This document shows positions 8,175 through 59,948 of a DNA stretch of 64,000 nt, piece after piece. Each line of letters starts with the position of its first letter. Position 1 is the stretch's first letter. Source of the DNA: Streptomyces sp. WMMC500 (GTDB taxonomy: Bacteria; Actinomycetota; Actinomycetes; Streptomycetales; Streptomycetaceae); contig NZ_CP114905.1 of the NCBI RefSeq assembly GCF_027497195.1, positions 1,240,001 to 1,304,000 on the forward strand. Direction: 5' to 3'. The translations under genes and the position numbers were made by a program. A model generated the notes under the pieces. That model made no database searches. It saw only the letters and a program-made list of their open reading frames with translations, and had not been told where the DNA came from.

Positions 8175-8190
8175 GGGGCCGGACGGACCC
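8175..8190. promoter_or_regulatory. Candidate response-regulator box GGGGCCGGACGGACCC
   Basis: A 16-base near-palindrome with dyad positions GGG-C-G--C-G-CCC. It sits in the 259-bp divergent promoter region, 89 bases upstream of the DevR-like gene and 155 bases upstream of the Rv1733c-like gene. It shares layout with sites at 23535 and 17676 and with GGGnC...GnCCC half-sites known for DevR. Binding is an inference. Confidence 0.45.
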
Positions 8191-9041: not shown

Positions 9042-9056
9042 GGAGCCGATGGTCCC
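9042..9056. promoter_or_regulatory. Candidate response-regulator box upstream of phosphoketolase
   Basis: GGAGCCGATGGTCCC lies 90 bases upstream of the phosphoketolase start. It matches the site at 22401 at 12 of 15 positions and has the GTCCC half-site of DevR-type boxes. The spacing is one base shorter than in the 16-base sites at 8175 and 23535. Function is inferred only from recurrence. Confidence 0.4.
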
Positions 9057-9145: not shown

Positions 9146-11530
9146 ATGCAAGAGGTGACGACGCCCGAGCCGGCCGCCCCCGGCGACGACGAGCTCGCCG
9201 CACTGGATGCCCACTGGCGGGCCGCCAACTACCTGTCGGCCGGCCAGATCTACCTGATGGACAATCCGCTGCTGGCCGAACCGTTGCGGCCGGAGCACGT
9301 CAAGCCGCGGCTGCTCGGGCACTGGGGCACCTGCCCCGGGCTCAACCTCGTGCACACCCACCTCAACCGCGTGGTCAAAGCCCGCGGCCAGGACGCACTG
9401 TGTGTCTGGGGCCCGGGCCACGGCGGCCCGGCGGTGCTGGCGAACTCCTGGCTGGAGGGCTCGTACTCCGAGACGTACCCGGACGTCGGCCGGGACACGG
9501 CCGGCATGGCGCGGCTGTTCCGGCAGTTCTCCTTCCCCGGCGGGGTGCCCAGCCACGTCGCGCCGGAGACACCCGGCTCGATCCACGAAGGCGGAGAGCT
9601 CGGCTACGCCCTCAGCCACGCCTACGGCGCCGCGCTGGACAACCCCGATCTCCTCGTCGCCTGCGTCGTCGGCGACGGCGAGGCCGAGACGGGGCCGCTG
9701 GCCGCCTCCTGGCACTCCAACAAGTTCCTCGACCCGGTCCACGACGGCGCCGTGCTGCCGATCCTGCACCTGAACGGATACAAGATCGCCAATCCCGCGG
9801 TCTTGGCCCGCCTGCCCGAGACCGAACTCGACGAGCTGCTGCGCGGCTACGGCCACGCCCCCATCCACGTCACCGGCGACGACCCGATGACCGTCCACCG
9901 CGCCGTGGCCCGGGCGATGGACACCGCGCTCGACCGCATCGCCCTGATCCAGCGGACCGCCCGCGAAGACGGCGTCACCGAGCGCCCGCGCTGGCCGGTG
10001 ATCGTGCTGCGCACACCCAAGGGCTGGACCGGCCCCGCCGAGGTCGACGGCCTGCCGGTCGAGGGCACCTGGCGCGCCCACCAGGTGCCACTGGCCGCGG
10101 TCCGCGACCACCCCGAGCACCTGCGGCAACTGGAGGCCTGGCTGCGCTCCTACCGCCCCCAGGAGCTGTTCGACCGCGACGGCCGTCCCACCGCCGAGGT
10201 GCTGGCATGCGTGCCGGACGGTGACCAGCGGCTCGGCGCCACCCCGTACGCCAACGGCGGGCTGCTGCTGCGCGAGCTGCCGCTGCCGCCGCTGGAGGGG
10301 CACGCGGTGAAGGTCGTCGAGCCGGGCGGGAGCACCCACGAACCCACCCGCGTGCTCGGCGACTTCCTCGCCGAGGTGATGCAGGCGACGGCCGGCCGCC
10401 GCGACTTCCGGCTCGTCGGCCCGGACGAGACCGCCTCCAACCGGCTCGACGCCGCCTACACCGCCACCGGCAAAGCCTGGCAGGCCGGCGTGACCGACAC
10501 CGACGAGCACCTCGACCGGCACGGCCGGGTCATGGAGATCCTCTCCGAGCACACCTGCCAAGGCTGGCTGGAGGGCTACCTGCTCACCGGCAGGCACGGC
10601 ATGTTCTCCTGCTACGAGGCGTTCGTGCACATCGTCGACTCGATGGTCAACCAGCACATCAAGTGGCTGCGCACCACCCGCCGGCTGCCCTGGCGGCGCC
10701 CTATCGCCTCCCTCAACTACCTGCTGACCTCGCACGTCTGGCGGCAGGACCACAACGGCTTCAGCCACCAGGACCCCGGCTTCGTCGACCACGTGATGAA
10801 CAAGGCGCCCGAGGCCGTGCGCGTCTACCTGCCGCCGGACGCCAACACCCTGCTGTCCGTGGCCGACCACGCGCTGCGCAGCCGGGACTACGTCAACGTG
10901 ATCGTCGCGGGCAAGCAGCCGAGCTTCGACTGGCTGTCGATGGAGCAGGCCCGCGTGCACTGCGCCCGCGGCGCCGGCATCTGGGAGTGGGCCGGCACCG
11001 AACGCGGGGTGCGCAGCCCCGACGTGGTGCTGGCCTGCGCCGGCGACGTGCCCACCCTGGAGATCCTGGCCGCGGCCCAGCTGATCCGCCGCCACCTGCC
11101 ATACCTGGCCGTACGCGTGGTCAACGTCGTCGACCTGGCCCGGCTGCTGCCGCACGACGAGCATCCGCACGGCATGACCGACGCCGAGTTCGACGCGCTC
11201 TTCACCCGCGAGAGCCCGGTGATCTTCGCGTACCACGGCTACCCCTGGCTGATCCACCGGCTCGCCTACCGCCGCGCCGTCCACCCCCACCTGCACGTCC
11301 GTGGCTACAAGGAGATCGGCACCACCACGACCCCGTTCGACATGGTCGTCGGCAACGACCTCGACCGCTACCGCCTGGTCATGGACGTCATCGACCGCGT
11401 ACCGGACCTGGCCGTGCGCGCCGCCCCGGTGCGCCAGGCCATGGAGGACGCCCGCGCCCGCCACGCGGTCTGGATCCGCGCCCACGGCACCGACATGCCG
11501 GAGGTCGCCGACTGGACCTGGACCCCCTGA
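9146..11530 (+). CDS. Phosphoketolase (xylulose-5-P/fructose-6-P)
   Basis: A 794-residue thiamine-diphosphate enzyme of normal family length. It cleaves xylulose 5-phosphate (and often fructose 6-phosphate) with phosphate to acetyl-phosphate plus glyceraldehyde 3-phosphate or erythrose 4-phosphate. Visible family motifs include WGPGHGGPA, the thiamine-diphosphate/Mg site [19 protein letters not shown], and [11 protein letters not shown] in the middle domain. The start at 9146 has AAAGGACGGACTC upstream. Only 28 bases separate it from the GAPDH gene, so they form an operon: the glyceraldehyde 3-phosphate made here can feed directly into GAPDH. The acetyl-phosphate could give ATP through acetate kinase, which is not seen in this window. 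A candidate regulator box lies at 9042. Confidence 0.93.
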
Positions 11531-11558: not shown

Positions 11559-12575
11559 ATGACCGTACGCGTCGGCATCAACGGCTTCGGCCGCATCGGC
11601 CGCAACTACCTGCGCAGCGCCCTCGGCCGGGACGGCCGCGACACCACCGCGGTGGAGGTCGTGGCGGTCAACGACATCACCTCCACCGCGACCCTGGCGC
11701 ACCTGCTGCAGTACGACTCCACCTACGGCCGGCTCACCGCGGACATCACCGCGGACGACACCTCGATCACCCTCGACGGCCGACGTATCGCCGTCACCGC
11801 CGAGCGCGACCCGGCCGCCCTCGACTGGTCGGCCCACGGCGTCGACGTCGTCATCGAGTCCACCGGCCGCTTCCGCGCCCGCGACGACGCCGCGCTGCAC
11901 CTGAAGTCCGGCGCCCGCAAGGTGCTGGTCTCCGCCCCGGGCAAGAACGCGGACGCCACCGTCGTGATGGGCGTCAACGAGTCCGACTACGACCCGGGCC
12001 GGCACCACGTCGTCTCCGGCGCCTCCTGCACGACCAACTGCGTGGCACCCATGGCGCACGTCCTGCACCAGCGCTTCGGCGTCGTCAAAGGCCTGATGAC
12101 CACCATCCACGGCTACACCAACGACCAGGCCCTGCTGGACGGCCCGCACAAGGACCTGCGCCGCGCCCGCTCCGCCGCGGTCAATATCATCCCCACCTCC
12201 ACCGGCGCTGCACGGGCGACCGGCCTGGTGATACCCGCGCTGGACGGCGCCCTTGACGGCATCGCCGTGCGCGTGCCCGTCGAGGACGGCTCCCTCACGG
12301 ACCTCACCGTGATCCTGGACCGCCCCGCCGGCGCCGAGGAGATCAACGACGCCTTCGCCGACGCGGCCGACGGCCCGCTGCGCGGCGTCCTGCGCCACTC
12401 GACCGCGCCGATCGTCTCCCGCGACGTCATCGGCGACCCGGCGTCCTGCGTCTTCGACGCCGCCCTGACCCGGGCGAGCGGCGAACTGGTCAAGGTCTTC
12501 GGCTGGTACGACAACGAGTGGGGCTACAGCAACCGGCTGCTCGACCTCACCGAGTACGTCGCCGCACGGTTGTAA
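11559..12575 (+). CDS. gap: Type I glyceraldehyde-3-phosphate dehydrogenase
   Basis: A 338-residue GAPDH. Its NAD-binding N-terminus is VRVGINGFGRIGRNYLRSAL, the catalytic Cys is in SGASCTTNC and the phosphate-binding motif is STGAARATG. The C-terminal YDNEWGYSNRLLDL motif is intact. It oxidises glyceraldehyde 3-phosphate to 1,3-bisphosphoglycerate, making NADH. It is placed 28 bases after phosphoketolase and 12 bases before a Usp gene, so it is probably co-transcribed with both. It is likely a second, stress-specific GAPDH rather than the housekeeping one, an inference from the neighbourhood. GAAGGAGAGACACGCATC precedes the ATG. Confidence 0.94.
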   Translation: MTVRVGINGFGRIGRNYLRSALGRDGRDTTAVEVVAVNDITSTATLAHLLQYDSTYGRLTADITADDTSITLDGRRIAVTAERDPAALDWSAHGVDVVIESTGRFRARDDAALHLKSGARKVLVSAPGKNADATVVMGVNESDYDPGRHHVVSGASCTTNCVAPMAHVLHQRFGVVKGLMTTIHGYTNDQALLDGPHKDLRRARSAAVNIIPTSTGAARATGLVIPALDGALDGIAVRVPVEDGSLTDLTVILDRPAGAEEINDAFADAADGPLRGVLRHSTAPIVSRDVIGDPASCVFDAALTRASGELVKVFGWYDNEWGYSNRLLDLTEYVAARL

Positions 12576-13604: not shown

Positions 13605-15377
13605 ATGGAGCTGGAACACGCAGGCGGCGGCGGGCGGGCGCCGCGGCTGCAACTGGACGAGCTGCTCGACGAACTCCAGCTGCACGTCGACGAGGTCCGC
13701 GGCACCCGCGACCGGCTGCACAGCCTGCTGGACGCGGTGATGAACGTCGGCCGCGACCTGGATCTCAGCCATGTGCTGCGGCGCATCGTGGAGGCGGCGG
13801 TCGTGCTCGTCGACGCGGAGTACGGGGCGCTCGGCGCCCTCGGCGAAGCGCCGGAGGACCGGCAGCTCGCGCAGTTCCTGCCGGTGGGTATCGACGAGGA
13901 GAAGGCGGCCGCGATCGGCGCACCGCCGTGCGGCCGCGGCATCCTCGGCGTACTCATCCGCCACCCGGAACCGCTGCGGCTGCGGGAGATATCCGACCAC
14001 CCCGACTCGCACGGCTTCCCCGCCCACCACCCCCCGATGCACTCCTTCCTCGGCGTCCCGGTCCGGGTCCGCGACGAGATCTTCGGCAACCTCTACCTCA
14101 CCGACAAGCGCGACGCCGACGAGTTCGACGCCGAAGACGAGGCCGTGCTGTCCACGCTCGCCGCGGCCGCCGGCGTGGCCATCGAGAACGCCCGGCTGTA
14201 CGAGGAGTCGCGCCGCCGGCAGCGGTGGATGGCCGCCTCCGCCGAAGTCACCGCGGCGCTGCTGTCCGGCGCCGCCGAAGACGCCGTGCTCGGACTCATC
14301 GTCGAGCGGGCCCGAGAACAACTCGGCGCGGAGCTGGGGTCGGTGGCGCTGCCCGTACCCGGCAGCGCTCGGCTGCGGGTGGCGCTTGCCCACGGCCCGG
14401 GCGCCGAGGAGCACGAAGAGCGGCTGCTGCCCGTCGACGACTCGCTGTCCGGCCTCGCCTACACCAGCGGTGAGCCGGTGCTCAGCGAGGACGTGCAGAG
14501 CGAGCCCCGCCTGCACGGCACCACGCTGCGCGACGCCGGACTCGGGCCCGCGGTCGCCGTGCCGATGGGCACCGAGGACGGCCGGCGGGGCGTGCTGCTG
14601 CTCGCCCGCGCCGCGGGCGCACCGGCGTTCACCCCCGAGGAGACCGCGCCGCTGCAGGGCTTCGCCGGCCAGGCGGCGCTGGCGATGGAACTGGCCCACC
14701 GCCGCCGCGACGCCGAGCAGCTGGCACTGTCGTCCGAGCGCGAACGCATCGCGCGCGACCTGCACGACCTGGCCATCCAGCGGCTCTTCGCCACCGGCAT
14801 GACGCTGCAGAGTACCGTCCGCCTGGAGCGGACCGCGGAGGGCGAGGAGAAGCTGCTGCGCGCCGTGCGCGAACTCGACGAGACCATCAAGATCATCCGC
14901 ACGACGATCTTCGGGCTGCGCGCCCACGAGGCGGGCGACCACGGCGCCGCCGGCCTGCGCCGCCGCCTCGTCGACACCGTCGAAACCGCCGCGACCACCC
15001 TCGGGTTCAGCCCGGCGCTGCGCACCGAAGGACTGCTCGACGTGAACGTGCCCCCCGACGTCGCCGACCACGCCCTGGCGGTCCTGGGCGAAGCGCTGAC
15101 CAACGTCGCCCGCCACGCGCGCGCCCATTCGGTCGACGTCATCCTCGCCGTCGGCGGCGACGACCTCACCCTGACCGTCGCAGACGACGGCGTCGGCCTG
15201 CGCCCCGGCGGCCACCGCGGCGGCCTGGCCAACATCGCCGAGCGAGCCGAGGAACTCGGCGGCACGCTGAAGCTCACCACCCCGACCGGCGGCGGCACGC
15301 GCCTGGTCTGGCACGTCCCGCTGCACGGCGCGGACCGGACCGGTCCCGCCGGCGCCCCGCCGCGCGCCGGCGGCTGA
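13605..15377 (+). CDS. DevS/DosS-like double-GAF sensor histidine kinase
   Basis: A 590-residue soluble kinase: coiled N-terminus, GAF-A (about residues 55-195), GAF-B (about 215-365), HisKA_3 with phospho-acceptor His387 in RIARDLHDLAIQRLF, and a C-terminal HATPase (GEALTNVARHARA, DDGVGLRPG). GAF-A contains GFPAHHPPMHSFLGVPVRVRD. In mycobacterial DevS/DosT the equivalent HHPPM segment supplies the proximal haem histidine, here His141 or His142, so a haem-based O2/NO/CO sensor is likely. The ATG at 13605 follows a GAAAGGGTG ribosome site. It lies 96 bases after the Usp gene and is convergent with a CBS-BON gene. Its probable partner is the response regulator at 7382-8086. Confidence 0.9.
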   Translation: MELEHAGGGGRAPRLQLDELLDELQLHVDEVRGTRDRLHSLLDAVMNVGRDLDLSHVLRRIVEAAVVLVDAEYGALGALGEAPEDRQLAQFLPVGIDEEKAAAIGAPPCGRGILGVLIRHPEPLRLREISDHPDSHGFPAHHPPMHSFLGVPVRVRDEIFGNLYLTDKRDADEFDAEDEAVLSTLAAAAGVAIENARLYEESRRRQRWMAASAEVTAALLSGAAEDAVLGLIVERAREQLGAELGSVALPVPGSARLRVALAHGPGAEEHEERLLPVDDSLSGLAYTSGEPVLSEDVQSEPRLHGTTLRDAGLGPAVAVPMGTEDGRRGVLLLARAAGAPAFTPEETAPLQGFAGQAALAMELAHRRRDAEQLALSSERERIARDLHDLAIQRLFATGMTLQSTVRLERTAEGEEKLLRAVRELDETIKIIRTTIFGLRAHEAGDHGAAGLRRRLVDTVETAATTLGFSPALRTEGLLDVNVPPDVADHALAVLGEALTNVARHARAHSVDVILAVGGDDLTLTVADDGVGLRPGGHRGGLANIAERAEELGGTLKLTTPTGGGTRLVWHVPLHGADRTGPAGAPPRAGG

Positions 15378-18337: not shown

Positions 18338-18850
18338 TCAGGCCGCCGCGTGCGTGCCGCGTATCTCCGCGGCGACCTCGGCGGCCCAGTCACGGATCTG
18401 CCTCCGGTCCCGGAAGTCGCCGCCCTTGCCGGACCGCACGATCCGCCTGGCGACGAAGCCCTCGGCGCTCTCGTCCAGCTTTCCGCCGAAGACGACGTGG
18501 GACTCGGCCCGCACCCGGTCGGCCAGGCGCTTCGTCGCCGGTGGGCTCACGGCCCGGCCCTCTTGCGCCGAGTCGTCCAGCGGGCCGCTGCTGAACAGCC
18601 ACACGGGCCGGCGCAGCAGGGCGCGGCGGTGCCGGCGGGCGAAGCGGACCGCCTCGCGCCGCCAGTGCGCCGCGTACACCCCGGAGCCGAGGACGACCGC
18701 GCCGTACGGGCCGAGATCGCGCACCTGCCGGGCCGGCTGCACGTCTGCGTCGATGCCCTGCTCGCCGAGTTCGGCGGCGATCCAGTGGGCGATCTCCGCC
18801 GTGGAGCCGTTCTTCGAGCCGTACGCGACGAGCACACGGAGCGTACTCAT
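18338..18850 (-). CDS. Flavodoxin-domain protein
   Basis: A 170-residue flavodoxin-like protein. The FMN-phosphate loop is YGSKNGSTAEIAHWIA at residues 10-25, the second FMN contact region is VVLGSGVYAAHWRREA, and a third conserved strand is PVWLFSSGPLD. This type resembles HemG-like/flavodoxin-domain proteins found near dormancy genes in actinobacteria; it could carry low-potential electrons. It is 16 bases downstream of the CBS-BON gene start region on the same strand (that gene ends at 18867), so the pair is probably one operon. Whether it serves the diaphorase or the pyruvate formate-lyase activase is not shown. Confidence 0.85.
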   Translation of the reverse strand: MSTLRVLVAYGSKNGSTAEIAHWIAAELGEQGIDADVQPARQVRDLGPYGAVVLGSGVYAAHWRREAVRFARRHRRALLRRPVWLFSSGPLDDSAQEGRAVSPPATKRLADRVRAESHVVFGGKLDESAEGFVARRIVRSGKGGDFRDRRQIRDWAAEVAAEIRGTHAAA

Positions 18851-19629: not shown

Positions 19630-22317
19630 TCAGCGCAGTCGGCGCAGGTAGGGGTCGTGCTCCCGGCGCGGCAGCACACGGATGCGCACGTCCACGGCGG
19701 TGACGCCGTCCGGCCGCGCCAGCAGCGGGTTGAGGTCGGCCTCGGTGAGCTGCGGCAGGTCGTGGACCATCGCCGACAGCCGCAACAGGTGCTGCTCCAG
19801 ACCCGCCAGGTCCACGGGTCCGGCGCCGCGGTGGCCGAACAGCAGCGGGGCGCAGCGCGGAGTGGTGATCAGGTCGTGAACGTCGCGGTCGGTGAGCGGC
19901 GCGAGCCGCGCCGCGTGGTCGGCCAGCAGTTCGGTGGCGGTGCCGCCGAGGCCGAAGAGGACCAGCGGGCCGAAGACGTCGTCGTCGGTGACACCGGCGA
20001 ACAGCTCGGTGCCGCGCCCGGCCATGGGCTGCACGAGCACGCCGGTCATCGTCCCGGCGAAGCGGGCGGCGAGGTCGCGGCACGCGGCCCGCACCTGGGC
20101 ATCGCCCTGCAGGTCCAGCACCACTGCGCCCTGCTCGCTCTTGTGCACCAGCCCCGGCCAGTACGCCTTGAGGGCCACCCGGCCGTCCGGGCCGGCCAGC
20201 CGGGCGGCCGCTTGGGCCGTGTCCTCCTCGTTCTCCGCCCAGGCCCAGGGCAGCCGCCGGATGCCGTAGCAGTCGAGCAACTCCGCGCAGCCGCGAGGGT
20301 CGAGCCAGCCGCCCTCCGGCCGATTCGCCAGGAAGCCGTCGACGAGGGCGCGGGCGCGCGCCGGGTCGATGCCGTCGAGGACGGGGTGGGCGCCTGGCGG
20401 GCGGGCCAGCCAGCGGGCCCGCTCGGCTGCGTGTGCCAGCGCCCGGGCGGCGGCGTCGGCGTCGGCGTAGGCCGGCACTGCGCCGCCCTGCGTGTGAGGC
20501 AGCAGCCGCACCTGCTCCGGCTGCCCGAGGACGACCGCGGCGACCGTTCGGGAGCAACGCCCGGCCAGCAGCCCGAGAACCGGGTCGTCGCCGGTCGCCG
20601 CGGCCAGCGCGGTGGGTGCCAGCGCCACCAGCACCGCGTCGACGGCGCCGTGCGCGGTCAGCCGTTCCACGCAGGCGCGCAGCGCCCGGGAGCCGACCGC
20701 GGCGGTGGCGTCGACGGGGTTGGCGGCGAACGCCCCTTCGGGCAGCACCCGCAGCAGGTCGTCGACCAGAGCCGCGGGCAACTCCGGTACCGTCAGGCCG
20801 GCTTCGGCGCAGGCGTCGGCCGCCAGGACGCCGACGCCGCCCGCGTTGGACACCACCGCCACCCGGCTGCCCGCGGGCAGCGGCTGAGACTGCAGGAGGG
20901 CTGCGGCGTCGAGCAGTTCGGACACCGACCGGGTGGCGGTGACCCCGGCCTGGGTGAACAGCGCCTGCCGGGTCATCGTCGGGGTGGCGGCGGCCGCCGT
21001 GTGCGAGGCGGCGGCCCGCCGTCCGGCGGCGGAGCGGCCGGCGTCGACGGTCAGCACCGGCATCCTGCGCGCCACCCGGCGGGCGGTGCGGGAGAAGGCG
21101 CGCGGGTTGCCGAAGGACTCCAGGTGCAGCAGCGCCAGCTCGGTCGTCTCGTCGGATTCCCACCACTGCAGCAGGTCGTTGCCGCTGACGTCGTACTTGT
21201 CGCCGAGCGAGACGAAGCTGGAGACGCCGATGCCGAGCCGGGTGAGCCCGTCGAGCAGCGCGATGCCCACCCCGCCGGACTGCACGGCGACCCCTGCGCG
21301 GCCGCGCGCCGGGCGGCGTGCGGCGAAGGTGGCGTCCAGACGTACCGCCTCGTCGGTGTTGGCGATGCCCAGGCAGTTGGGGCCCACCAGTCGCATCCCG
21401 TGGCTGCGGCAGGCGTTCAGCAGCGCGGCGCCCTGCTTCTCGTCGAGCCCGGAGGACAGGACCACCAGGGCCCGTGCCCCCGCCTTGCCGCACTCCTCTG
21501 CCGTCGCCGGCACCGCGGCTGCGGGGACGGCCAGCACGGCGAGATCAGGCACGGCGGGCAGGGCGCCGACGGACGGGTAGCTGGGGGTGCGCTCGACGGC
21601 GTGGGCGTGCGGATTGACCGCCAGCAGCCGGCCGGCGAAGCCGCCGCGCCGCAGATTGCGCAGCACCGCCCGGCCGACGGAGCCGGGGCTGCGCCCCGCG
21701 CCGACCACCGCGATGCAGTCGGGCCGCAGCAGCGGCTGCAGGCTGGCGGTGTCGGCCGTGCGCCCCCGTTCCTCGCAGGCTTCGAGGTAGCGCTCGTCCG
21801 GCTCCAGCTCCACCGTGCAGCGCAGCTCCGAACCGTCGAGCCGGCGGGTCACGCGCAGCCCCACATCGGTGAAGACCTGCTGCACCTCGTGGTTGTCGGC
21901 CAGCGCGTCGGCGGTGAAGACCCGCACGCCGTCGGTGCGTGCCGCGTGCACCAGGTGCTCGAGCAGCAGCGTGCCGATGCCGTGGTGGTGCAGGTCGTCG
22001 GCGACCGTGAGAGCGAGATCCGCGCTCGCGGAGCCCGGCTCGGCCTTCTCGTATTCGGCCACCCCGACGATCCGCTCGCCCAACTCGGCGAGCAGCGCGG
22101 TGTGCCCGGTCCGCCCCGGGTCGCACGCCCGCTCCGCCGCCCAGCGGCCCGGCCGCGCGGCGGAGCTGAAGAACCGCAACCGGAGGTTCTCCGGCGACAT
22201 CCACCGGTACAGCTCCAGCAACCGGTCGTGGTCATCCGGCCGCGCAGGCCGGATCAGCACGGTCCTGCCGTCTGCCAGCAGCGCGTGTGCGGCCTTGTCC
22301 TGCACGACGTCCGTCAT
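19630..22317 (-). CDS. GNAT acetyltransferase fused to NDP-forming acyl-CoA synthetase-like protein
   Basis: An 895-residue fusion. Residues about 20-165 are a GNAT domain with the acetyl-CoA loop HHHGIGTLLLEHLV. The rest follows ADP-forming acetyl-CoA synthetase order: CoA-binding domain (about 195-290, CIAVVGAGRSPGSVGRAV), succinyl-CoA-ligase-like domains (VGPNCLGIAN, VAVQSGGVGIALLD) and an ATP-grasp domain (about 665-890, RVALKAYWPGLVHKSEQGAV). This is the layout of Pat-type protein lysine acetyltransferases, in which the synthetase part may be regulatory; SHTAAAAT could hold the phospho-His of active enzymes. Two roles are possible: acetylation of metabolic enzymes, or ATP formation from acetyl-CoA. 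Confidence 0.87.
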   Translation of the reverse strand: MTDVVQDKAAHALLADGRTVLIRPARPDDHDRLLELYRWMSPENLRLRFFSSAARPGRWAAERACDPGRTGHTALLAELGERIVGVAEYEKAEPGSASADLALTVADDLHHHGIGTLLLEHLVHAARTDGVRVFTADALADNHEVQQVFTDVGLRVTRRLDGSELRCTVELEPDERYLEACEERGRTADTASLQPLLRPDCIAVVGAGRSPGSVGRAVLRNLRRGGFAGRLLAVNPHAHAVERTPSYPSVGALPAVPDLAVLAVPAAAVPATAEECGKAGARALVVLSSGLDEKQGAALLNACRSHGMRLVGPNCLGIANTDEAVRLDATFAARRPARGRAGVAVQSGGVGIALLDGLTRLGIGVSSFVSLGDKYDVSGNDLLQWWESDETTELALLHLESFGNPRAFSRTARRVARRMPVLTVDAGRSAAGRRAAASHTAAAATPTMTRQALFTQAGVTATRSVSELLDAAALLQSQPLPAGSRVAVVSNAGGVGVLAADACAEAGLTVPELPAALVDDLLRVLPEGAFAANPVDATAAVGSRALRACVERLTAHGAVDAVLVALAPTALAAATGDDPVLGLLAGRCSRTVAAVVLGQPEQVRLLPHTQGGAVPAYADADAAARALAHAAERARWLARPPGAHPVLDGIDPARARALVDGFLANRPEGGWLDPRGCAELLDCYGIRRLPWAWAENEEDTAQAAARLAGPDGRVALKAYWPGLVHKSEQGAVVLDLQGDAQVRAACRDLAARFAGTMTGVLVQPMAGRGTELFAGVTDDDVFGPLVLFGLGGTATELLADHAARLAPLTDRDVHDLITTPRCAPLLFGHRGAGPVDLAGLEQHLLRLSAMVHDLPQLTEADLNPLLARPDGVTAVDVRIRVLPRREHDPYLRRLR

Positions 22318-22400: not shown

Positions 22401-22415
22401 GGGGCCGAGAGTCCC
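22401..22415. promoter_or_regulatory. Candidate response-regulator box GGGGCCGAGAGTCCC
   Basis: The core GGGCCGAGAGTCCC matches the mycobacterial DevR-box layout GGGnC-n4-GnCCC exactly in spacing. It lies 84 bases upstream of the synthetase gene and 208 bases upstream of the divergent Usp gene. Confidence 0.5.
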
Positions 22416-26074: not shown

Positions 26075-26959
26075 ATGATCCGACCCGTCGTCGCCGGCAT
26101 CGACGGCTCCCCGGAGAGCCTGGCCGCCGCCGACTGGGCGGCGCGGGAGGCCCAGCGTCGCGGGGCGCCGCTCTCGCTCGTGCAGTCGTGGGAGTGGCCG
26201 CCGCGCGGTGTACCCGAGCTCGCCCACGACGACAGCGCCCGCTACCACGCGGAGCGCGTCCTGCGCACCACCGAGGCATCTCTGCGGTCCAGCTACCCGG
26301 GGCTGGCCGTCGCGGCGGCACAGAGCCCCGACCTGGCGGTGCCGATGCTGCTGCGGGCCGCTGAGGAGGCGGAGGTGCTGGCCCTGGGCTCCCGCGGGCT
26401 CGGCGGCCTGGCCGGCTTCCTGCTCGGCTCGGTCGGACTGGCCACGGTCGCCCGTGCCGCCTGCCCCGTGGTGCTGGTCCGGTCGGACCAGCGGCGGGAG
26501 GACGAGCACGAGCAGGACGCCGACGGCCCCGGCTCCGCAGCCGGCCGGCACCGTCGGGTGGTGGTCGGCGTCGGCTTCCGGCGGCCCTGCGACCCGCTCC
26601 TGGAGTTCGCCTTCGACGCCGCCGCACGCCGGCGCACCTCGCTGCTGGCGGTCAACGGCTGGCGAACGCCCCTGCCGTACTCCATCCCGCTGTCGGGGCC
26701 CGCCACGCAGGCGGACGCCGCACGCATGCTCGCCGCCGCGGTCGCCCCCTGGCGCCGCAAGTACCCGGAGGTCCGCGTGATCGAGGACGTGGCCACCGGT
26801 AGCGGCGCAGGGCACCTGCTCGACGTCGCCGCCGACGCCTCGTTGCTCGTCGTCGGCCGGCGGATCAGCCGCCCGCCGTTCGGCACCCGGCTCGGCCCGA
26901 TCGCCCACGCCGTGCTGCACCACGCCCACTGCCCCGTCGCCGTCGTCCCCTACGACTGA
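26075..26959 (+). CDS. Universal stress protein, tandem Usp domains (copy 4)
   Basis: A 294-residue tandem Usp protein. Domain 1 (about residues 3-140) has AGIDGSPESLAAADWA and the ATP loop GSRGLGGLAGFLLGSVG. Domain 2 (about 157-292) ends THAVLHHAHCPV-like (AHAVLHHAHCPVAVVPYD). It belongs to a different subgroup from copies 1 and 2 (ADWAAREA instead of LDHAVDEA) and resembles copy 5 at 29787. Only 34 bases separate it from the PPDK gene, which implies co-transcription. The region upstream is debris of the GH65 gene, so its promoter may lie within that debris. Confidence 0.9.
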   Translation: MIRPVVAGIDGSPESLAAADWAAREAQRRGAPLSLVQSWEWPPRGVPELAHDDSARYHAERVLRTTEASLRSSYPGLAVAAAQSPDLAVPMLLRAAEEAEVLALGSRGLGGLAGFLLGSVGLATVARAACPVVLVRSDQRREDEHEQDADGPGSAAGRHRRVVVGVGFRRPCDPLLEFAFDAAARRRTSLLAVNGWRTPLPYSIPLSGPATQADAARMLAAAVAPWRRKYPEVRVIEDVATGSGAGHLLDVAADASLLVVGRRISRPPFGTRLGPIAHAVLHHAHCPVAVVPYD

Positions 26960-26993: not shown

Positions 26994-29699
<2,706 letters not shown>

Positions 29700-29786: not shown

Positions 29787-30617
29787 ATGTCAGGAAGCGT
29801 CGTCGCCGCGATCGACGGCTCCGCGGGCAGCGCCGCTGCAGCGGAGTGGGCGGCGGGTGAAGCCGCCGCGCTGGGGGCGGAGTTGCTGCTGGTGTACGTC
29901 GTCGCAGACGAGCCGGAGCCGGGCACGCATAGCGCCGACGCGGATGCGGGCCCGCTGCTTGAGCGGGCCGCCGGGGAGGTGGCCGGCCGGTATCCGGCGC
30001 TGCGGGTCACGACCCGGCTGCGGCACGGCGACCCGGGGTCCGAGCTCGCCGCGGCCGGGGCGGAGGCGGAGGCCGGACTGCTGGTGCTGAGGGCGCCCGG
30101 TGCGGAGGGCTGGGAGCACGCGCCCGCCGGCGGCGCGGCGTTCGCCCTGACGGCCCGCGCGTCCTGCCCGGTGGTGCTGGTGCCGCGGGGGGAGCGGCAG
30201 AACGACGGCGACGAGGTGGTCCTCGGCGTCGACGCCCGGCACGCCGATCAGTCCGCCGTGGACCTGGCCTTCGCCACGGCCCGGCGCCGCGGAGCGGTGC
30301 TGCGCGCCGTGCACGCCTGGGGCCTGCCGCCCGCCGCCGAGCGACTGCCGTACACGGTGACGGAGGAGGACCGCGGCGCGTGGGAGGACCAGGAGCTCCA
30401 GCGGCTCAGCGACACGCTGCGCGGCTGGCGGGAGAAGTACCCGGCGGTGCACGTCCACGACGACCTGCGGCTGCTGCCCCCCGACGAGGCGCTGCCGGCG
30501 GCGTCCGCGCGGGCCGAGCGTATCGTGATCGGCCGCGGCGGCCCGGCGATGAGCCCCACCGCCCGCGCCGTCCTGCGCCGGGCCCGCTGCCCCGTGGTCG
30601 TCGTACCGACGACCTGA
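29787..30617 (+). CDS. Universal stress protein with degenerate ATP loop (copy 5)
   Basis: A 276-residue tandem Usp protein. Both domains have the fold markers (AAIDGSAGSAAAAEWAAGEA; VLGVDARHADQSAVDLAF; ARCPVVVVPTT), but the G-2x-G-9x-G loop of domain 1 is replaced by LRAPGAEGWEHAPAGGAAFA and that of domain 2 by IGRGGPAMSPTARA. ATP binding is therefore doubtful. The ATG at 29787 follows GAGGGAGGCCGATAC; a GTG at 29763 is a weaker alternative. It has a hairpin on each side, so it is probably monocistronic and ends at the strong terminator at 30672. Confidence 0.85.
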   Translation: MSGSVVAAIDGSAGSAAAAEWAAGEAAALGAELLLVYVVADEPEPGTHSADADAGPLLERAAGEVAGRYPALRVTTRLRHGDPGSELAAAGAEAEAGLLVLRAPGAEGWEHAPAGGAAFALTARASCPVVLVPRGERQNDGDEVVLGVDARHADQSAVDLAFATARRRGAVLRAVHAWGLPPAAERLPYTVTEEDRGAWEDQELQRLSDTLRGWREKYPAVHVHDDLRLLPPDEALPAASARAERIVIGRGGPAMSPTARAVLRRARCPVVVVPTT

Positions 30618-30729: not shown

Positions 30730-33402
30730 CTATCGCGCGGGGACCGGTTCGGGGACGGCGGCGTCGCCGTAGTAGGCCGCTCGCATCAGCTCCTGCATGT
30801 CGGCCAGCATCGGCATCCGCGGGTTGGCCGGCGCGCACTGGTCCTCGTAGGCGTTGAGGGCCTGCCGGGGCAGCGCTTCGAGGAAGCTCCGCTCGTCCAC
30901 GCCGAGCTTCTGGAACGAGGGCTCGATGCCGACGGCGTCGCGGAGCCGCTCCACGGCCGCGGCGAGGGACTCCACGGCTTCCCCGGCGGTGCCGGCGGGC
31001 AGGCCGAGGGTGCGGGCGATGTCCTGGAAGCGCTCGGGTGCGCGGTAGTGCTCGTACTTCGGCCAGCCGGTGAGCTTGGCCGGCACGGTGCCGTTATAGC
31101 GGATGACGTGCGGCAGCAGCACCGCGTTCGTACGTCCGTGGGCGATGTGGAACGTCGCCCCCAGGATGTGCGACATGGCGTGCACGATGCCGAGGAAGGC
31201 GTTGCCGAAGGCCATGCCGGCGATGGTGCCCGCGTTGTGCAGCTTCTCCCGCGCCACGGGGGAGGCCGCCCGGTCGTTCACGGCAGCTTCGAGGTGCTCG
31301 AAGACCAGGCGGATGGCGTGCAGGGCGGGGCCGTCGGTGAAGTCGTTGGCGTAGACCGACACGTACGCCTCGATGGCGTGGGTCAGGGCGTCGAAGCCGC
31401 TGTCGGCGGCCAGCGCCGGAGGCAGGTCGGCGGTCAGCAATGGGTCGACGATGGCCACGCTGGGGGTGAGCGCGTAGTCGGCGAGGGGGTACTTCTTGCC
31501 GGTAGCGGGGTCGGAGATGACGGCGAACGGGGTCACCTCGGCGCCGGTGCCGGACGTGGTGGGAATGCACACCAGGCGGGCGGCCGCACCCAGGACCGGG
31601 AAGCGGAAGGCGCGTTTGCGGATATCGGAGAACTTCTGCCGCATGTCCGCGAAGTCGATCCCGGGCTGCTCGTACAGCAGCCACATCACCTTGGCGGCGT
31701 CCATGGGCGATCCGCCGCCCAGCGCGATGATGGTGTCCGGGCGGAACTCCCGCATCAGGTCCGCACCGTGCTGCACGGAGTCGATGCTCGGCTCGGGTTG
31801 GACGTTGTCGATGATCTGCAGGGTGACGGGCTCGCGGCGGCGTTGCAGCACGCGGCTGACGCGGTCGACGAAGCCCAGGCGGGTCATGGTCGCGTCGGTG
31901 ACGATCGTGACGCGGTGGAGGTCCGGCATGGCAGCCAGGTACCGGATGGCCTGCGGCTCGAAGTAGATCTTCGGCGGGACCTTGAACCACTGCAGGTTGT
32001 TCTGCCGGGTGCCGACCCGCTTGATGTTCAGCAACTGCGCGGCGGAGACGTTGTTGGACACCGACGTACTGCCCCACGAACCGCAGCCCAGGGTCAGCGA
32101 CGGCAGCAGGCTGTTGTAGACGCCGCCGATCGCGCCCTGCGAGGAAGGTGAGTTGACGATGACCCGCACGGTCTTCATCCGCATGCCGTACGCCTCGGCA
32201 AGCTCGCGGTCCCCGGTGTGGATGACGGCGCTGTGCCCCTGGCCGTGGAAAGCGACCATGTCGGCCGCCAGGTCGAAGCCCTGACGGGGTGAGCCGGCAC
32301 GCAGCACGGCCAGCACCGGGCAGAGCTTCTCGCGGGTCAGCGGCTCGTCCGGACCCACGCGCGTCGCCTCGACGAGGATCAGGGAGGTGCCCTCGGGCAC
32401 GCTGAAACCCGCCTGCGCCGCGATCCACGCCGGACTCCGTCCGACGGCCGCGGCGTTGACCTTGGGCTCGCAGCCCGCGTTCGAGGCGCCGACGGGGAAG
32501 AGGAACGCCTCCAGCTTCGCCTTCTCCGCGGCGGTGGCCACGTAGGCGTGCAGGGTGCGGAACTCGGCGAGCGCCGCGTCGTAGACCTCGGAGTCCAGGA
32601 TGACGGCCTGCTCGGAAGCGCAGATCATCCCGTTGTCGAACGACTTGGACAGCACCAGGTCGTTCACGGCACGGCGCAGGTCGGCGCTCTTGTGGACGTA
32701 GGCGGGAACGTTGCCCGCGCCCACGCCGAGCGCGGGCTTGCCCGCCGAGTAGGCGGCCTTGACCATGCTGTTGCCGCCGGTGGCCAGGATCAGCGAGACC
32801 CCCGGATGGTGCATCAGGGTCCGGGTCGCCTCGACGGACGGCTCCTCGATCCACTGCACGCAGTGCGCCGGCGCGCCCGCGGCCACGGCCGCGTCGCGCA
32901 CGATCCGGGCCGCCTCCGCGCTGCACCGCTGGGCCGAGGGGTGGAAGGCGAAGACCACCGGGTTGCGGGTCTTCAGCGCCATCAGCGCCTTGAAGACGGT
33001 GGTGGAGGTCGGGTTCGTGACCGGGGTGATCGCGCACACCACGCCCACCGGCTCGGCGATCTCGACCATGTCCTCGGTCTCGTCGCGGGCGACGACACCC
33101 ACGGTCTTCATCCGGCCCATGCTGTGCGTGACGTGCTCGCACGCGAACATGTTCTTGACCGCCTTGTCCTCGAAGACGCCGCGGCCGGTCTCCTGCACCG
33201 CGAGCAGCGCCAGCTCGGTGTGCCGGTCCAGGGCCGCGACCGACGCCTTCTTCACGATGTGGTCGACCTGCTCCTGGTCCAGCGACGCGTAGTCGCCGAG
33301 CGCCTTCAGGCCATTGGTGACCAGCCGGTCCACGGCTACGGCGGTCTCGGAGGGCCCGGTCTCGGGTGTGGTCGTGCGGTTTCGCTCGTCCTGGCCGGTC
33401 AT
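30730..33402 (-). CDS. adhE: Bifunctional acetaldehyde-CoA/alcohol dehydrogenase
   Basis: An 890-residue AdhE. The N-terminal CoA-acylating aldehyde dehydrogenase half (about residues 20-450) has the catalytic Cys in SFDNGMICASEQAV and NPTSTTVFKALMALK. The C-terminal iron-dependent alcohol dehydrogenase half (about 475-880) has the NAD loop ALGGGSPMDAAK and the iron-ligand region GFDALTHAIEAYVSVY plus HAMSHILGATFHIAHGRTNA. It reduces acetyl-CoA to acetaldehyde and then ethanol, regenerating two NAD+. The ATG at 33402 is 37 bases after the pyruvate formate-lyase activase, so it is the third gene of a pflB-pflA-adhE operon. AdhE is classic in facultative and strict anaerobes and unusual in Streptomyces. 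Confidence 0.94.
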   Translation of the reverse strand: MTGQDERNRTTTPETGPSETAVAVDRLVTNGLKALGDYASLDQEQVDHIVKKASVAALDRHTELALLAVQETGRGVFEDKAVKNMFACEHVTHSMGRMKTVGVVARDETEDMVEIAEPVGVVCAITPVTNPTSTTVFKALMALKTRNPVVFAFHPSAQRCSAEAARIVRDAAVAAGAPAHCVQWIEEPSVEATRTLMHHPGVSLILATGGNSMVKAAYSAGKPALGVGAGNVPAYVHKSADLRRAVNDLVLSKSFDNGMICASEQAVILDSEVYDAALAEFRTLHAYVATAAEKAKLEAFLFPVGASNAGCEPKVNAAAVGRSPAWIAAQAGFSVPEGTSLILVEATRVGPDEPLTREKLCPVLAVLRAGSPRQGFDLAADMVAFHGQGHSAVIHTGDRELAEAYGMRMKTVRVIVNSPSSQGAIGGVYNSLLPSLTLGCGSWGSTSVSNNVSAAQLLNIKRVGTRQNNLQWFKVPPKIYFEPQAIRYLAAMPDLHRVTIVTDATMTRLGFVDRVSRVLQRRREPVTLQIIDNVQPEPSIDSVQHGADLMREFRPDTIIALGGGSPMDAAKVMWLLYEQPGIDFADMRQKFSDIRKRAFRFPVLGAAARLVCIPTTSGTGAEVTPFAVISDPATGKKYPLADYALTPSVAIVDPLLTADLPPALAADSGFDALTHAIEAYVSVYANDFTDGPALHAIRLVFEHLEAAVNDRAASPVAREKLHNAGTIAGMAFGNAFLGIVHAMSHILGATFHIAHGRTNAVLLPHVIRYNGTVPAKLTGWPKYEHYRAPERFQDIARTLGLPAGTAGEAVESLAAAVERLRDAVGIEPSFQKLGVDERSFLEALPRQALNAYEDQCAPANPRMPMLADMQELMRAAYYGDAAVPEPVPAR

Positions 33403-33439
33403 GGCGATGTGCCTCCGTAGTCGAGTTCTGCCGCGCGGC

Positions 33440-34192
33440 TCAGCACGCGCGCAGGCCGTGTGCGGCGAAGCGGTCTCGGACCCGCCGCACGAGGCCCCGG
33501 TCCGGCACCGGGGTGTCGCGCAGCGGGAAGGGGATGCCGAGCGCGTCGTACTTGGCGGCGCCCAGCTTGTGGAACGGCAGCACGTCCACCCGCTCGACGT
33601 TGCCGAGGCCGGAGAGGAACGCGCCGAGGGCATCGACGCTCGCGTCGTCGTCCGTCCAGCCCGGCACGAGGACGTAGCGGATCCACACCGGGACACCCAG
33701 CCCTTCCAGCCTGCGGGCGAAGGCGAGCGTGGGGGCGAGCCGGCCGCCGGTCAGCCGGCGGTAGGCGGCCGGGTCGTAGGACTTGACGTCCAGCAGGACG
33801 AGCTTCGTGTGCCGCAGCAGCGCGTGGCTCGCGCGGGTGCCGAGGAAGCCGGAGGTGTCCAGCGCGGTGTGCAGGCCCAGGGCCCGGCACCGGCGCAGGA
33901 TCTCCCCGGTGAACGCCGCCTGCAGCAGCGGTTCTCCGCCACTGAGGGTGACCCCGCCGCCCGCGGCCTCGAGGAACGGACGGTGCTGCTCGATGCGGGC
34001 CATCACCTCGTCGGCCGTGGTGCGCCGGCCGTCGCGCATGCGCCAGGTGTCGGGATTGGCGCAGTACAGGCAGCGCAGCGGGCAGCCGCTGAGGAAGAGC
34101 ACGAACCGGGTTCCCGGGCCGTCCACGCCGGTGGACAGGTCCCAGGAGTGGACCCGGCCCACCGGCGCGGCCACCTTCTCCACGGTGCTCAT
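33440..34192 (-). CDS. pflA: Pyruvate formate-lyase activating enzyme (radical SAM)
   Basis: A 250-residue radical SAM enzyme with the CxxxCxxC cluster motif in [14 protein letters not shown] (Cys at about residues 37, 41 and 44) and the SAM-contact motif [11 protein letters not shown]. It has the normal length of PflA and lacks the extra ferredoxin domain of other glycyl-radical activases, which supports pyruvate formate-lyase as its partner. It uses a [4Fe-4S] cluster and S-adenosylmethionine to install the glycyl radical. Its start overlaps the lyase stop by four bases (ATGA), so the two are translationally coupled. It needs a low-potential electron donor; the flavodoxin-like protein at 18338 is one possible source. 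Confidence 0.93.
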
Positions 34193-36468
34193 CGGGAGTC
34201 GTGGAACGTGCGGCCGATCACGTCGAGCTGCTGCTCGCGCGTCAGGCGGACGAAGTTGACCGCGTAGCCGGAGACACGGACGGTCAGCTCCGGGTACTTC
34301 TCCGGGTGCGCCATCGCGTCCTCCAGCGTCGCCCGGTCCAGGACGTTGACGTTCATGTGGAAGCCGCCGGCGGCGACGTAGCCGTCCAGCAGGCCGACCA
34401 GGTGGCCGGCGCGTTCGGCCGGGTTGTGGCCCAGGCCCTCCGGGGTGACGGTGGAGGTGAGCGAGATGCCGTCGCGGGCGTGGTCGTACGGGAGCTTGGC
34501 CACCGACAGCGCGGAGGCGGCCATGCCGTGCCGGTCGCGCCCGTTCATCGGGTTGGCGCCGGGCGCGAAGGGGGCGCCGGCGCGGCGGCCGTCGGGGGTG
34601 TTGCCGGTGTGCTTGCCGTAGACGACGTTCGAGGTGATGGTCAGCACCGACTGGGTGTGCTCGGCGTTGCGGTAGGCGGGGTGGCGGCGCACCTTGGCCA
34701 TGAAGGAGCGCACGAGGCCGACGGCGATGTCGTCGGCGCGGTCGTCGTTGTTCCCGTAGGCCGGGTAGGCCGGTTGGGTCTCGGGGCCGCCCTCGGTCTC
34801 GTAGTCGACGGCGAGCCCGGTGGCGTCGCGGATCACCCGCACCCGCGCATGCTTCACGGCCGACAGGCTGTCGGCGGCGACGGACAGGCCGGCGATGCCG
34901 CAGGCCATGGTGCGGTGCACCGGGTGGTCGTGCAGCGCCATCTCCAGCCGCTCGTAGGCGTACTTGTCGTGCATGTAGTGGATGACGTTCAGCGCGTCGA
35001 CATACGTGGCCGCCAGCCAGTCCAAGGTGCGGTCGTACGCCGCGGACAGCTCGTCGTAGTCCAGATACTCGCCGGTCAGCGGAGCGGTGGGCGGGGCGAT
35101 CTGCTCACCGGTCAGCTCGTCGCGGCCGCCGTTGATCGCGTACAGCAGTGCCTTGGCGAGGTTGACGCGGGCTCCGAAGAACTGCATCTGCCTGCCCACC
35201 GTCATCGCCGAGACGCAGCAGGCGATGGCGGTGTCATCGCCGGTGACCGGACGCATCAGCTCGTCCGACTCGTACTGGATCGCGCTGGTGTCGATCGAGG
35301 CCTGGGCGCAGAACCGCTTGAAACCGGCCGGCAGCTTCGGCGACCACATGACGGTGAGGTTCGGCTCGGGTGCCGGCCCGAGGTTGTACAGGGTCTGCAG
35401 GAAGCGGAAGGAGGTGCGGGTGACCAGCGGCCGCCCGTCCGCGCCGATGCCCCCGATGGACTCGGTGACCCACGTCGGGTCGCCGGAGAACAGCGCGTCG
35501 TACTCCGGGGTGCGCAGGAAGCGCACGATGCGCAGCTTGACGACGAAGTCGTCGACCAGCTCCTGCGCCCGCGATTCGTCGATGACGCCGTCGTCGAGGT
35601 CGCGCTGGAGGTAGACGTCGAGGAAGGTGGAGGTACGGCCCAGGGACATCGCGGCACCGTTCTGCTCCTTCACCGCGGCCAGGAACCCGAGGTACAGCCA
35701 CTGGATCGCCTCGCGCGCGCTCTGCGCGGGACGGCTGACGTCACAGCCGTACGAGGCGGCCATCCGCTCCAGCTCGCCGAGCGCCCTGATCTGCTCGGCC
35801 AGCTCCTCGCGGTCCCGGATCACCTCGGCCGTCGACGGCTCGGCGTCGAGCAGCGCGCGCTCGGCGCGCTTGGCCTCGACCAGCCGGGCGGTGCCGTGGA
35901 GGGCGACGCGGCGGTAGTCGCCGATGATCCGGCCGCGGCCGTAGGCGTCGGGCAGCCCGGTGATGATCCCGGCCTTGCGGGCGCGGCGCATCTCGGGCGT
36001 GTAGGCGTCGAAGACACCGTCGTTGTGGGTCTTGCGGTACGTGCCGAAGACCGCCGTGACGAACGGGTCGGGCTCGAAGCCGTAGGCGCGCAGCCCGTTC
36101 TCCACCATCCGCAGGCCGCCGTTGGGCATGACAGCCCGCTTCAGCGGAGCGTCGGTCTGCAGCCCCACGATCAGCTCGCGGTCCTTGTCGATGTACCCGG
36201 GCGCGTGAGAGGTGATGGTCGAGGGAGTGGCGGCGTCGACGTCCAGCACGCCCTTGCGCCGCTCCTCCGGAAAGAGCCCGGCCACCGCGTCCCACACCGC
36301 GCGGGTCCGCTCGGTCGGCCCGGCGAGGAACGAGCCGTCGCCCTCGTAGGGCGTGTAGTTGGCCTGGATGAAGTCCCGCACGTCGATCCGCTCGCGCCAC
36401 CGCGCGCCACGGAATCCACGCCAGGCGCGCTCCGCCGTGCTTCTGCCGTCGTGGGCCGTCACCGTCAT
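34189..36468 (-). CDS. pflB: Pyruvate formate-lyase (formate C-acetyltransferase)
   Basis: A 759-residue glycyl-radical enzyme of full length. The two catalytic cysteines are adjacent in [14 protein letters not shown], and the glycyl-radical loop near the C-terminus is [14 protein letters not shown]. The pair Cys-Cys marks pyruvate formate-lyase rather than diol dehydratase or benzylsuccinate synthase. It converts pyruvate and CoA to acetyl-CoA and formate and works only without oxygen, because O2 cleaves the radical form. It is the first gene of the pflB-pflA-adhE operon. The start at 36468 has a modest GGGGCGGG ribosome site. A perfect palindrome at 36560 lies 92 bases upstream. No formate dehydrogenase or formate channel is visible nearby. 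Confidence 0.95.
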
Positions 36469-36559
36469 CGTCCCGCCCCTTACGCGTCCAGGATCGACCA
36501 ACTGTTCTCCGCTTTCCATGCTGGAGTTGCGTCGGCTGTGTGAGACGGGGCCGCAGGGC

Positions 36560-36575
36560 TCGGACTGCCGTCCGA
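36560..36575. promoter_or_regulatory. Palindrome TCGGACTGCCGTCCGA upstream of pflB
   Basis: A perfect 6-bp inverted repeat spaced by four bases, located 92 bases before the pflB start. The GGAC-n4-GTCC core has the spacing of DevR-type boxes. It is nested in a larger dyad formed by GGGGCC at 36547 and GGCCCC at 36578. It is a likely operator for the anaerobic operon. Confidence 0.5.
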
Positions 36576-36596: not shown

Positions 36597-36806
36597 CTAG
36601 GTGTAGGAGGCCAGGCCGTTCGTTACGCCTTCGCATAGTCTCCGGGCTGGTGGTTGATCTCCTGCTCCGCTGTGGCGTCGGTGGTAGTTGTCATGGATGT
36701 TCCAGATGCCGAGAGCCTCACGGCGCTGGTCTTCGGACAGCCAGGTTCGGGCGTAGAGGAATTCTTCGGCGATGATCCGGTTATAGCGCTCCACTTTGCC
36801 TCGCAT
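36597..36806 (-). pseudogene. IS481-like transposase C-terminal remnant
   Basis: The minus strand encodes GKVERYNRIIAEEFLYAR, then [35 protein letters not shown], the C-terminal end of an rve-type IS481/IS3-like integrase core (the GKVER(Y/F)N motif precedes the catalytic Glu region). Only about 65 residues remain; upstream in the same direction (36807-37003) I find no continuation in any frame. It lies immediately upstream of the pflB promoter palindrome, so an insertion event has truncated or reshaped this intergenic region. Confidence 0.7.
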
Positions 36807-37003
36807 TCCGATCCCGGCTTGGTCGGGTGGCGCATGCAGGGAGGTCTGGCATGGCTTCGACGGGCACGCTGCCGCTGTTCGAACCCGCCTGCCGACCCGG
36901 GCGTGCTGGTGAGCGGGCGCACCCCGGCCACCCGCTTTTCTCGTGACGGCACCGGCGGAACCAGCTAACGCCAGTGCGATGCCGGTGCAGATGTCTAGTG
37001 CTG

Positions 37004-44280: not shown

Positions 44281-44295
44281 GGAGAGAGGTCAGTC

Positions 44296-53805: not shown

Positions 53806-53875
53806 CCGCTGGTCAGGTGCACCTTTCTGAGGTGCCTGGTTGACGTGCCGTCAGGTGTGGGTAGTTCGTGACCTC
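53806..53875 (+). repeat. Left terminal inverted repeat of the IS701-type element
   Basis: An imperfect match to the reverse complement of 55194-55261. It contains a small internal hairpin (GCACCT with AGGTGC). Confidence 0.75.
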
Positions 53876-55167: not shown

Positions 55168-55193
55168 GACAAGTGCAACGACCTACCGCACCA

Positions 55194-56722: not shown

Positions 56723-56751
56723 CCCGGCCCAGGTCCGCTGACCGATGCCGA

Positions 56752-59942: not shown

Positions 59943-59948
59943 GCCGGA

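Follow-up and report, generated by a model that had tools for sequence, protein, structure and literature searches.

The pflB-pflA-adhE operon of Streptomyces sp. WMMC500, which encodes a pyruvate formate-lyase (PFL), its activating enzyme and the two-domain dehydrogenase AdhE, probably belongs to the OsdR (DevR) regulon as a module for survival by fermentation, set within an island of hypoxia and dormancy genes. It lies in a 64,000-nucleotide stretch of contig NZ_CP114905.1 (positions 1,240,001 to 1,304,000), hereafter the window. Streptomycetes survive anoxia and are not known to grow without oxygen despite their anaerobic genes, a situation termed the 'anaerobic paradox' (PMC5069765). The present comparison suggests that these supposedly strictly aerobic bacteria ferment to survive without air. 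The case is carried by intact genes under purifying selection, the island in which they lie, an operator that many relatives have ahead of pflB and adhE, and the co-occurrence of AdhE with PFL.

The preliminary description of the window had claimed full-length pflB, pflA and adhE with their catalytic motifs, a 4-base overlap between the first two and a 37-base gap before the third. Coordinates, family cut-offs and alignments bear this out, both spacings being exact. PflB scores 1129.7 bits against the curated TIGR01255 equivalog cut-off of 994.2, and its residues 14-758 align with E. coli PFL (1h16) with the Cys pair (417/418) and the glycyl loop in register, the latter reading RVSGYAVNF around Gly734 (RVSGYAV at 731-737). 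The adjoining pflA specifies a dedicated activase (295.5 bits, TIGR02493 cut-off 231.75) that carries a CPLRCLYC motif and aligns with E. coli PFL-AE (3c8f). In AdhE (1326.7 bits, NF010378 cut-off 951) the Pfam Aldedh and Fe-ADH domains are fused, and residues 24-882 align with the solved AdhE 6ahc. Third-position GC is 0.95-0.96 in each of the three genes, and nothing in the 8.61-Mb genome other than PflB matches PF02901 or the glycyl-radical domain PF01228. The operon is thus predicted to encode a classical oxygen-sensitive PFL, a radical-SAM activase and a bifunctional AdhE.

Selection on these genes, for which the preliminary description had proposed dN/dS as a check, is evident from Nei-Gojobori comparisons of each window gene with its relatives. 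The median is 0.179 for pflB against 64 loci of the PFL class to which the window belongs (class A, see below; 0.162 among relatives), 0.345 for pflA against 63 such loci (0.251 among relatives) and 0.188 for adhE against 27 loci of either class (0.186 among relatives). Six loci were dropped from the adhE comparison, four of them for an in-frame stop within the aligned stretch; since no stop is listed inside those four genes, the alignment probably overran the gene end. With rounded medians of 0.18, 0.35 and 0.19, well short of neutrality, the neutral case is rejected, and all three genes are, by this measure, under purifying selection. Disabled homologues in sister strains, which the preliminary description had also raised, do exist among a minority: 11 of the 145 PFL-matching genomes hold only fragments, split frames or weak matches, and the remaining 134 are over the cut-off, so that a general disabling of PFL in sister strains was dismissed. 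The pflB-pflA-adhE operon is not a chance assembly; it is an intact, selected and complete predicted PFL/AdhE fermentation module.

Nor are the PFL genes the oddity of one genome, for 134 genomes out of 392 sampled in the genus hold PFL over the cut-off (145 with any match). AdhE exceeds its cut-off in 94, of which 92 are also PFL-positive (Fisher p ~1e-53, not corrected for kinship), and the two AdhE-only genomes retain PFL remnants, fragments in one (G034) and a gene split over two frames in the other (G105). The synteny that the preliminary description had proposed to look for held as co-occurrence and failed as gene order: 48 pairs of over-cut-off matches have adhE no more than 30 kb from pflB, and the contiguous order pflB-pflA-adhE occurs only in the window. 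In nine loci adhE immediately precedes pflB on the same strand, at 68-286 bases; in G218 it lies 1738 bases downstream, again on the same strand, and in the matching contig of S. morookaense (L074) a CBS gene on the opposite strand stands between the pfl genes and the downstream adhE. The nitrate reductase NarG is positively associated with PFL (71 of 134 PFL genomes versus 63 of 258 others, where NarG counts are the 134 genome rows with E = 0, the same number as over the cut-off).

The 141 over-cut-off PFL places in these 134 genomes comprise the window, 120 loci analysed alongside it with flanks of up to ~9 kb on each side, and 20 that were left out, including a second copy in G253. By identity to the window's PFL they fall into class A (82-86%, 64 loci), to which the window's own PFL belongs, and class B (69-76%, 56 loci). 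The flanks of class A hold genes for universal stress proteins (USPs) in 56 of the 64 loci, CBS proteins in 38, DevR in 35, Crp-like proteins in 30, AdhE in 23, pyruvate, phosphate dikinase (PPDK) in 18, phosphoketolase in 12 and DevS in 11, and at least three kinds of island gene are present in 51 of 64 class A loci versus 2 of 56 in class B. In a FastTree phylogeny, rooted at the midpoint, drawn without branch supports and used for topology only, class A groups with PFLs of Actinomadura, Sphaerisporangium, Acrocarpospora, Dactylosporangium, Virgisporangium, Actinoplanes and Kineosporia, and class B with Kitasatospora. Beside pfl, the Sphaerisporangium locus carries genes that resemble those for DevR, USP and DevS, and in Dactylosporangium pfl is accompanied by genes for GAPDH, three USPs and a CBS protein. 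The association of PFL with a dormancy island therefore seems to predate the genus. The classes also differ within pflA: CxxxCxxC is followed by Ala in the 21 motifs captured from class A and by His, as in E. coli, in the 45 captured from class B, the search pattern having caught 21 of 64 and 45 of 56 loci (43 and 11 uncaptured).

A link to the regulon comes from the DNA upstream of class A pflB. A 14-bp palindromic core, GGG[AC]CNNNNG[GT]CCC, is present there in 44 of the 64 loci where 0.93 would be expected; such expectations ignore shared ancestry, a caution that is strongest for class B and weaker for class A and for the Rex operator discussed below. A dyad search placed GGGC-N6-GCCC and its sub-dyads among the top matches, together with a second element, ACGA-N2-ATCG. 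Expectation-maximization (EM) with forced palindromic matrices arrived at GGGCCGATCGGCCC with a score of 143.8 from random and DosR-like seeds alike, shuffled sets reaching at most 28.2. This palindrome, found de novo before comparison with the literature, agrees with the OsdR consensus AGGGCCGATCGGCCCT, which was derived from the osdR promoters of 12 Streptomyces species and has support from electrophoretic mobility shift assays in S. coelicolor (PMC5069765). Its placement is regular, with 40 of 49 class A sites at -138 to -101 of pflB, and the centre of single sites is mostly GAAC or CAAC. Conservation ends at the edges of the 14 bp and the flanks are unconserved, a pattern that speaks against common descent of the region as the sole reason. 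A gene-by-gene survey covered 37 class A loci (32 of the 64 plus 5 named ones), with matches dropped if they had less than half coverage, started after residue 24 or had fewer than 151 upstream bases. The core stands upstream of pflB in 25 of 37, devR in 21 of 23, USPd-like genes in 34 of 59, adhE in 9 of 16, the Crp-like gene in 10 of 19, nitroreductase in 5 of 10 and PPDK in 3 of 8; it was found upstream of neither pflA (0/37) nor GAPDH (0/5) in these loci. The placement of class A PFL as a whole in the OsdR/DevR regulon appears well supported by this pattern.

Two other routes to the operator were abandoned. The box form GGGAC-N4..8-GTCCC turned up just once among 34 upstream regions, the dyad search and EM giving the real form, and a genome-wide count of GGGMCNNNNGKCCC in the window's genome was uninformative (229 per strand versus 438 for a reversed-pattern control). 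The second conserved element of the dyad search, approximately CGACGAYCATCG upstream of class A pflB, outscored the OsdR box in EM (149.2 versus 143.8).

In the window the operon forms one end of a dense island at ~5.2-36.5 kb, delineated from a gene list made with a home-made codon model and from family searches, with the Usp and CBS labels backed by Pfam. The island holds five USPs (PF00582), a nitroreductase, a response regulator, phosphoketolase, GAPDH, a two-GAF kinase and PPDK, as well as two CBS-BON proteins, an NAD-binding oxidoreductase, a cNMP-binding protein, OsmC, a flavodoxin-domain protein, a HAD phosphatase, a GNAT/ADP-forming acyl-CoA synthetase-like fusion and a DoxX-like protein (below cut-off). 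Both a DevR-type regulator and a DevS-type sensor are thus encoded near the operon, and by its gene content the island is of a hypoxia/dormancy type. The first GAF domain of the sensor kinase scores 173.5 bits to 2vzw and 156 to DevS 2y8h, and it conserves the His of the HPPM motif, which we take to be the haem ligand.

From these parts we infer the activity, induction, products and physiological role of the module as follows. A drop in oxygen would lead the DevS/OsdK-type haem kinase to phosphorylate DevR/OsdR, which would switch on the island. PflA, for which the flavodoxin-domain protein is a candidate electron donor, would then place a glycyl radical on Gly734 of PflB, and PFL would cleave pyruvate to formate and acetyl-CoA. 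Half of the acetyl-CoA could be reduced to ethanol by AdhE, regenerating NAD+, and the other half converted to acetate and ATP by acetate kinase or by the island's ADP-forming synthetase, supplying maintenance energy to non-growing mycelium or spores. Either route to acetate and ATP is conceivable because ackA is present in the genome and the synthetase-like fusion retains its SHT motif; the fusion aligns with 8wzu and scores 362 bits to TIGR02717, below the cut-off of 567. A possible outlet for formate is a cluster at 7.949 Mb that resembles formate dehydrogenase, with an FdhA-like protein (641.9, below the cut-off of 666.25), NuoEF-like and iron-sulphur (FeS) subunits and FdhD (over cut-off); an oxalate/formate-type MFS protein (below cut-off) lies a few genes away. 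Molybdopterin oxidoreductase matches number six in the genome, namely the FdhA-like protein, two NasC-like proteins, NuoG and two FdhF/YdeP-like proteins.

Several observations weigh against a regulated survival function, and they are best taken together with the alternatives that they favor. The first concerns the window's own promoter. All 63987 14-mers of the window were ranked with a scoring matrix to which 44 class A loci gave one site each and the window itself gave none. The two best precede phosphoketolase and devR, the third (at 519) is left of the island, the fourth is inside a gene and the fifth is an exact box (see Table). Eight sites score at least 7 within 5.0-37.0 kb, four of them fully intergenic, where intergenic DNA makes up 11.7% of the sequence (p 0.009); three further sites in the first 5 kb (519, 791 and 3177) are outside that count, and none scoring at least 7 was found in 37-64 kb, a less GC-rich stretch. 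The site at -93 of the window's pflB scores 7.3 and departs from the exact core, the lowest of the 44 class A sites scoring 8.7 and their median being 17.5. Its best score of 9/10 is expected in about a quarter of shuffled upstream regions and is not rare by itself. It deviates at position 3 of the 16-mer, the position at which a G to T change cut OsdR binding by ~50% (PMC5069765).

Beyond this weak site is a transposase remnant, a frame spanning -132 to -512 of pflB with a recognizable domain at ~-180 to -335. In six near relatives (L036, L053, L060, L061, L069 and L073) operators matching 9 or 10 of 10 positions are at -154 to -182, a distance that falls inside the remnant frame. Because the remnant sits where sister genomes keep their operator, direct OsdR control of pflB in this particular genome is uncertain. 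One could imagine, with some but rather low probability, that an insertion sequence (IS) has recently separated the operon here from its promoter and that the genes are now decaying, though relatives use theirs. A looser pflA in the window's lineage, as its elevated dN/dS indicates, would fit such decay, as would the relatives in which PFL survives only as fragments or split frames (L174/L176 in G034; G105, G374 and G272). Three full-length frames, the high third-position GC and a pflB dN/dS like that of relatives argue the other way, the weak site persists, and IS ends can supply promoters. Across class A, too, control is incomplete: 20 of the 64 loci are without an exact box upstream of pflB, and in the 37-locus survey the core is rare upstream of CBS1 (1/13), CBS2 (1/11), phosphoketolase (1/11) and DevS (0/4).

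Another difficulty is that 42 of the 134 PFL-positive genomes have no AdhE over the cut-off, as might be the case if PFL served biosynthesis or side reactions, such as formate supply for one-carbon units or 2-ketobutyrate cleavage, and not fermentation. PFL can indeed act on 2-ketobutyrate. This role is improbable, given that AdhE is almost never found without PFL, that nine further loci have adhE just ahead of pflB in the same orientation, and that the same operator precedes adhE in 9 of 16 class A cases.

The remaining points concern missing partners. In the window's genome FocA was not found (no match to PF01226), NarG was not found over the cut-off (best E 2.9e-9), no GrcA-type domain was found outside PflB, and the class III ribonucleotide reductase NrdD was not found, although the B12-dependent type was not searched for. 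Survival is therefore likelier than anaerobic growth. Ordinary facultative mixed-acid fermentation that supports true anaerobic growth would be in keeping with the PFL/activase/AdhE set, ackA and the NAD-linked formate dehydrogenase-like cluster; yet these absences, the dormancy-type island and the statement that streptomycetes cannot grow anaerobically (PMC5069765) leave it a slim prospect. The suggestion in the preliminary description of fermentation in submerged or dormant mycelium or spores accordingly stands in part: the island and the relatives' operator point to hypoxia and dormancy, and the missing partners favor survival over growth.

Class B PFL presents a different picture. Upstream of its pflB, the Rex operator TTGTGAANNNNTTCACAA, with the consensus taken from S. 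aureus (PMC2883068), occurs at no more than two mismatches in 25 of 56 loci, at least six of them perfect, where 0.0 would be expected. No such operator was found upstream of class A pflB (0/64 at up to three mismatches) or of the window's pflB, whose best site has six mismatches. With an OsdR operator in class A and a Rex operator in class B, the two classes look as if they are wired to different signals. In class B loci (e.g. L034:8756-11026, L050, L065 and L231) the flanks contain narK in 40 of 56 loci and adhE in 9, a molybdopterin oxidoreductase, an FeS protein, a Rieske protein and a membrane protein in 33 each, and an anaerobic C4-dicarboxylate transporter in 6. A further palindrome, TGATCGATCA, is upstream of class B pflB in 33 of 56 (0.1 expected, related sequences); nothing is drawn from class B motifs apart from Rex, as expectations ignore shared ancestry. 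The chances seem evenly balanced that hypoxic dormancy is powered by a PFL-AdhE fermentation under split control, with OsdR/DevR (oxygen/NO via haem) governing the island PFLs and Rex (NADH/NAD+) governing a second class that neighbors narK and a molybdopterin-FeS-Rieske operon. If true, such a maintenance fermentation would explain the 'anaerobic paradox', as energy and redox balance would be kept and growth left unsupported.

The individual parts of this module are known. It shares its enzyme families, aligned catalytic motifs and adjacent pflB and pflA with the PflB/PflA/AdhE mixed-acid module of E. coli. Unlike the latter, it has adhE in one operon with pflBA and is found in a dormancy-type island, in a genome where neither focA nor grcA was found and in a genus regarded as strictly aerobic. 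The OsdKR system of S. coelicolor (around SCO0167-SCO0219) is described as orthologous to M. tuberculosis DevRS/DosT (PMC5069765), and its regulon resembles the island in regulator and sensor type, USPs, PPDK, nitroreductase, Crp-like protein and the palindrome GGGCCGATCGGCCC. That regulon differs in including the nitrate reductase Nar2, and in the main text of PMC5069765 the terms 'formate', 'pfl' and 'ethanol' have 0 occurrences. Class B, for its part, shares an operator with the Rex regulon of fermentation genes in S. aureus (PMC2883068), from which class A, the window included, is set apart. No paper on Streptomyces PFL was among the matches listed in a search of the open-licence PMC literature, judged by titles and abstract openings, and the combination of PFL/AdhE with OsdR did not turn up in the searches made there. 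Roughly one third of the sampled genus thus carries PFL, selected where tested and often behind an OsdR or Rex operator, and the 'anaerobic paradox' becomes a question for a few gene deletions and metabolite measurements. If the proposal is true, fermentative energy metabolism joins a DevR-type dormancy regulon.

Table. Genes and sites of the window discussed in the text, with the matches that support each assignment.
Feature	Position	Strand	Support
DevR/OsdR-type response regulator	7382..8086	-	260.9 bits to DevR 3c3w, next best family 148.7; receiver and LuxR-type HTH
OsdR-type site before devR	8176..8189		9/10; second-best 14-mer of window
OsdR-type site before phosphoketolase	9043..9056		9/10; best-scoring 14-mer of window
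Phosphoketolase	9146..11530	+	NF003619 1416.6, cut-off 962
GAPDH	11559..12575	+	TIGR01534 409.7, cut-off 367.2
DevS/DosT-type sensor kinase, two GAF domains	13605..15377	+	Pfam GAF, HisKA_3, HATPase
Flavodoxin-domain protein	18338..18835	-	PF12724 81.8 bits, cut-off 27; NCBIfam matches below cut-off
GNAT and ADP-forming acyl-CoA synthetase-like fusion	19630..22317	-	Pfam GNAT, CoA-binding, Succ_CoA_lig, ATP-grasp_5 over cut-off
Exact OsdR-type box GGGCCGAGAGTCCC between synthetase and usp genes	22402..22415		10/10; rank 5
Universal stress protein	26075..26959	+	PF00582 147.7 bits
Pyruvate, phosphate dikinase (PPDK)	26994..29699	+	TIGR01828 1213.7, cut-off 843.45
Universal stress protein adjoining operon	29787..30617	+	PF00582 111.7 bits
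adhE, acetaldehyde-CoA/alcohol dehydrogenase, 890 aa	30730..33402	-	NF010378; alignment with 6ahc
pflA, PFL-activating radical SAM enzyme, 250 aa	33440..34192	-	TIGR02493; alignment with 3c8f
pflB, pyruvate formate-lyase, 759 aa	34189..36468	-	TIGR01255; alignment with E. coli PFL 1h16
Weak OsdR/DevR-type site GAGCCCTGCGGCCC at -93 of pflB	36548..36561	-	9/10 core positions; rank 7/63987
Transposase remnant frame (integrase-type)	36600..36980	-	PF13683 E 9e-7; rve_3 domain ~36648-36803

Elsewhere in the genome, a second DevR (77% identical) and a DevS-like partner are encoded at 2.590 Mb (G000:C1:2590238-2592787; L191:8239-10788), without PFL, and a third DevR-like regulator with 65% identity at 4.534 Mb. 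Beside the island, positions 666-4926 of the window carry a row of genes for PAS-STAS, STAS, an anti-sigma-type ATPase, a SpoIIE-type phosphatase and a PAS kinase, a stressosome-like set. To the right of the island is a fragment of a glycosyl hydrolase family 65 gene (38732-39271), followed at 43108-50808 and 53851-62958 by a separate cluster of lower GC that contains a single-module reducing polyketide synthase with a stand-alone ketosynthase-like protein, followed by a DDE_5 transposase, glycosyltransferases, an asparagine synthase-like protein, an FkbM methyltransferase and an epimerase.

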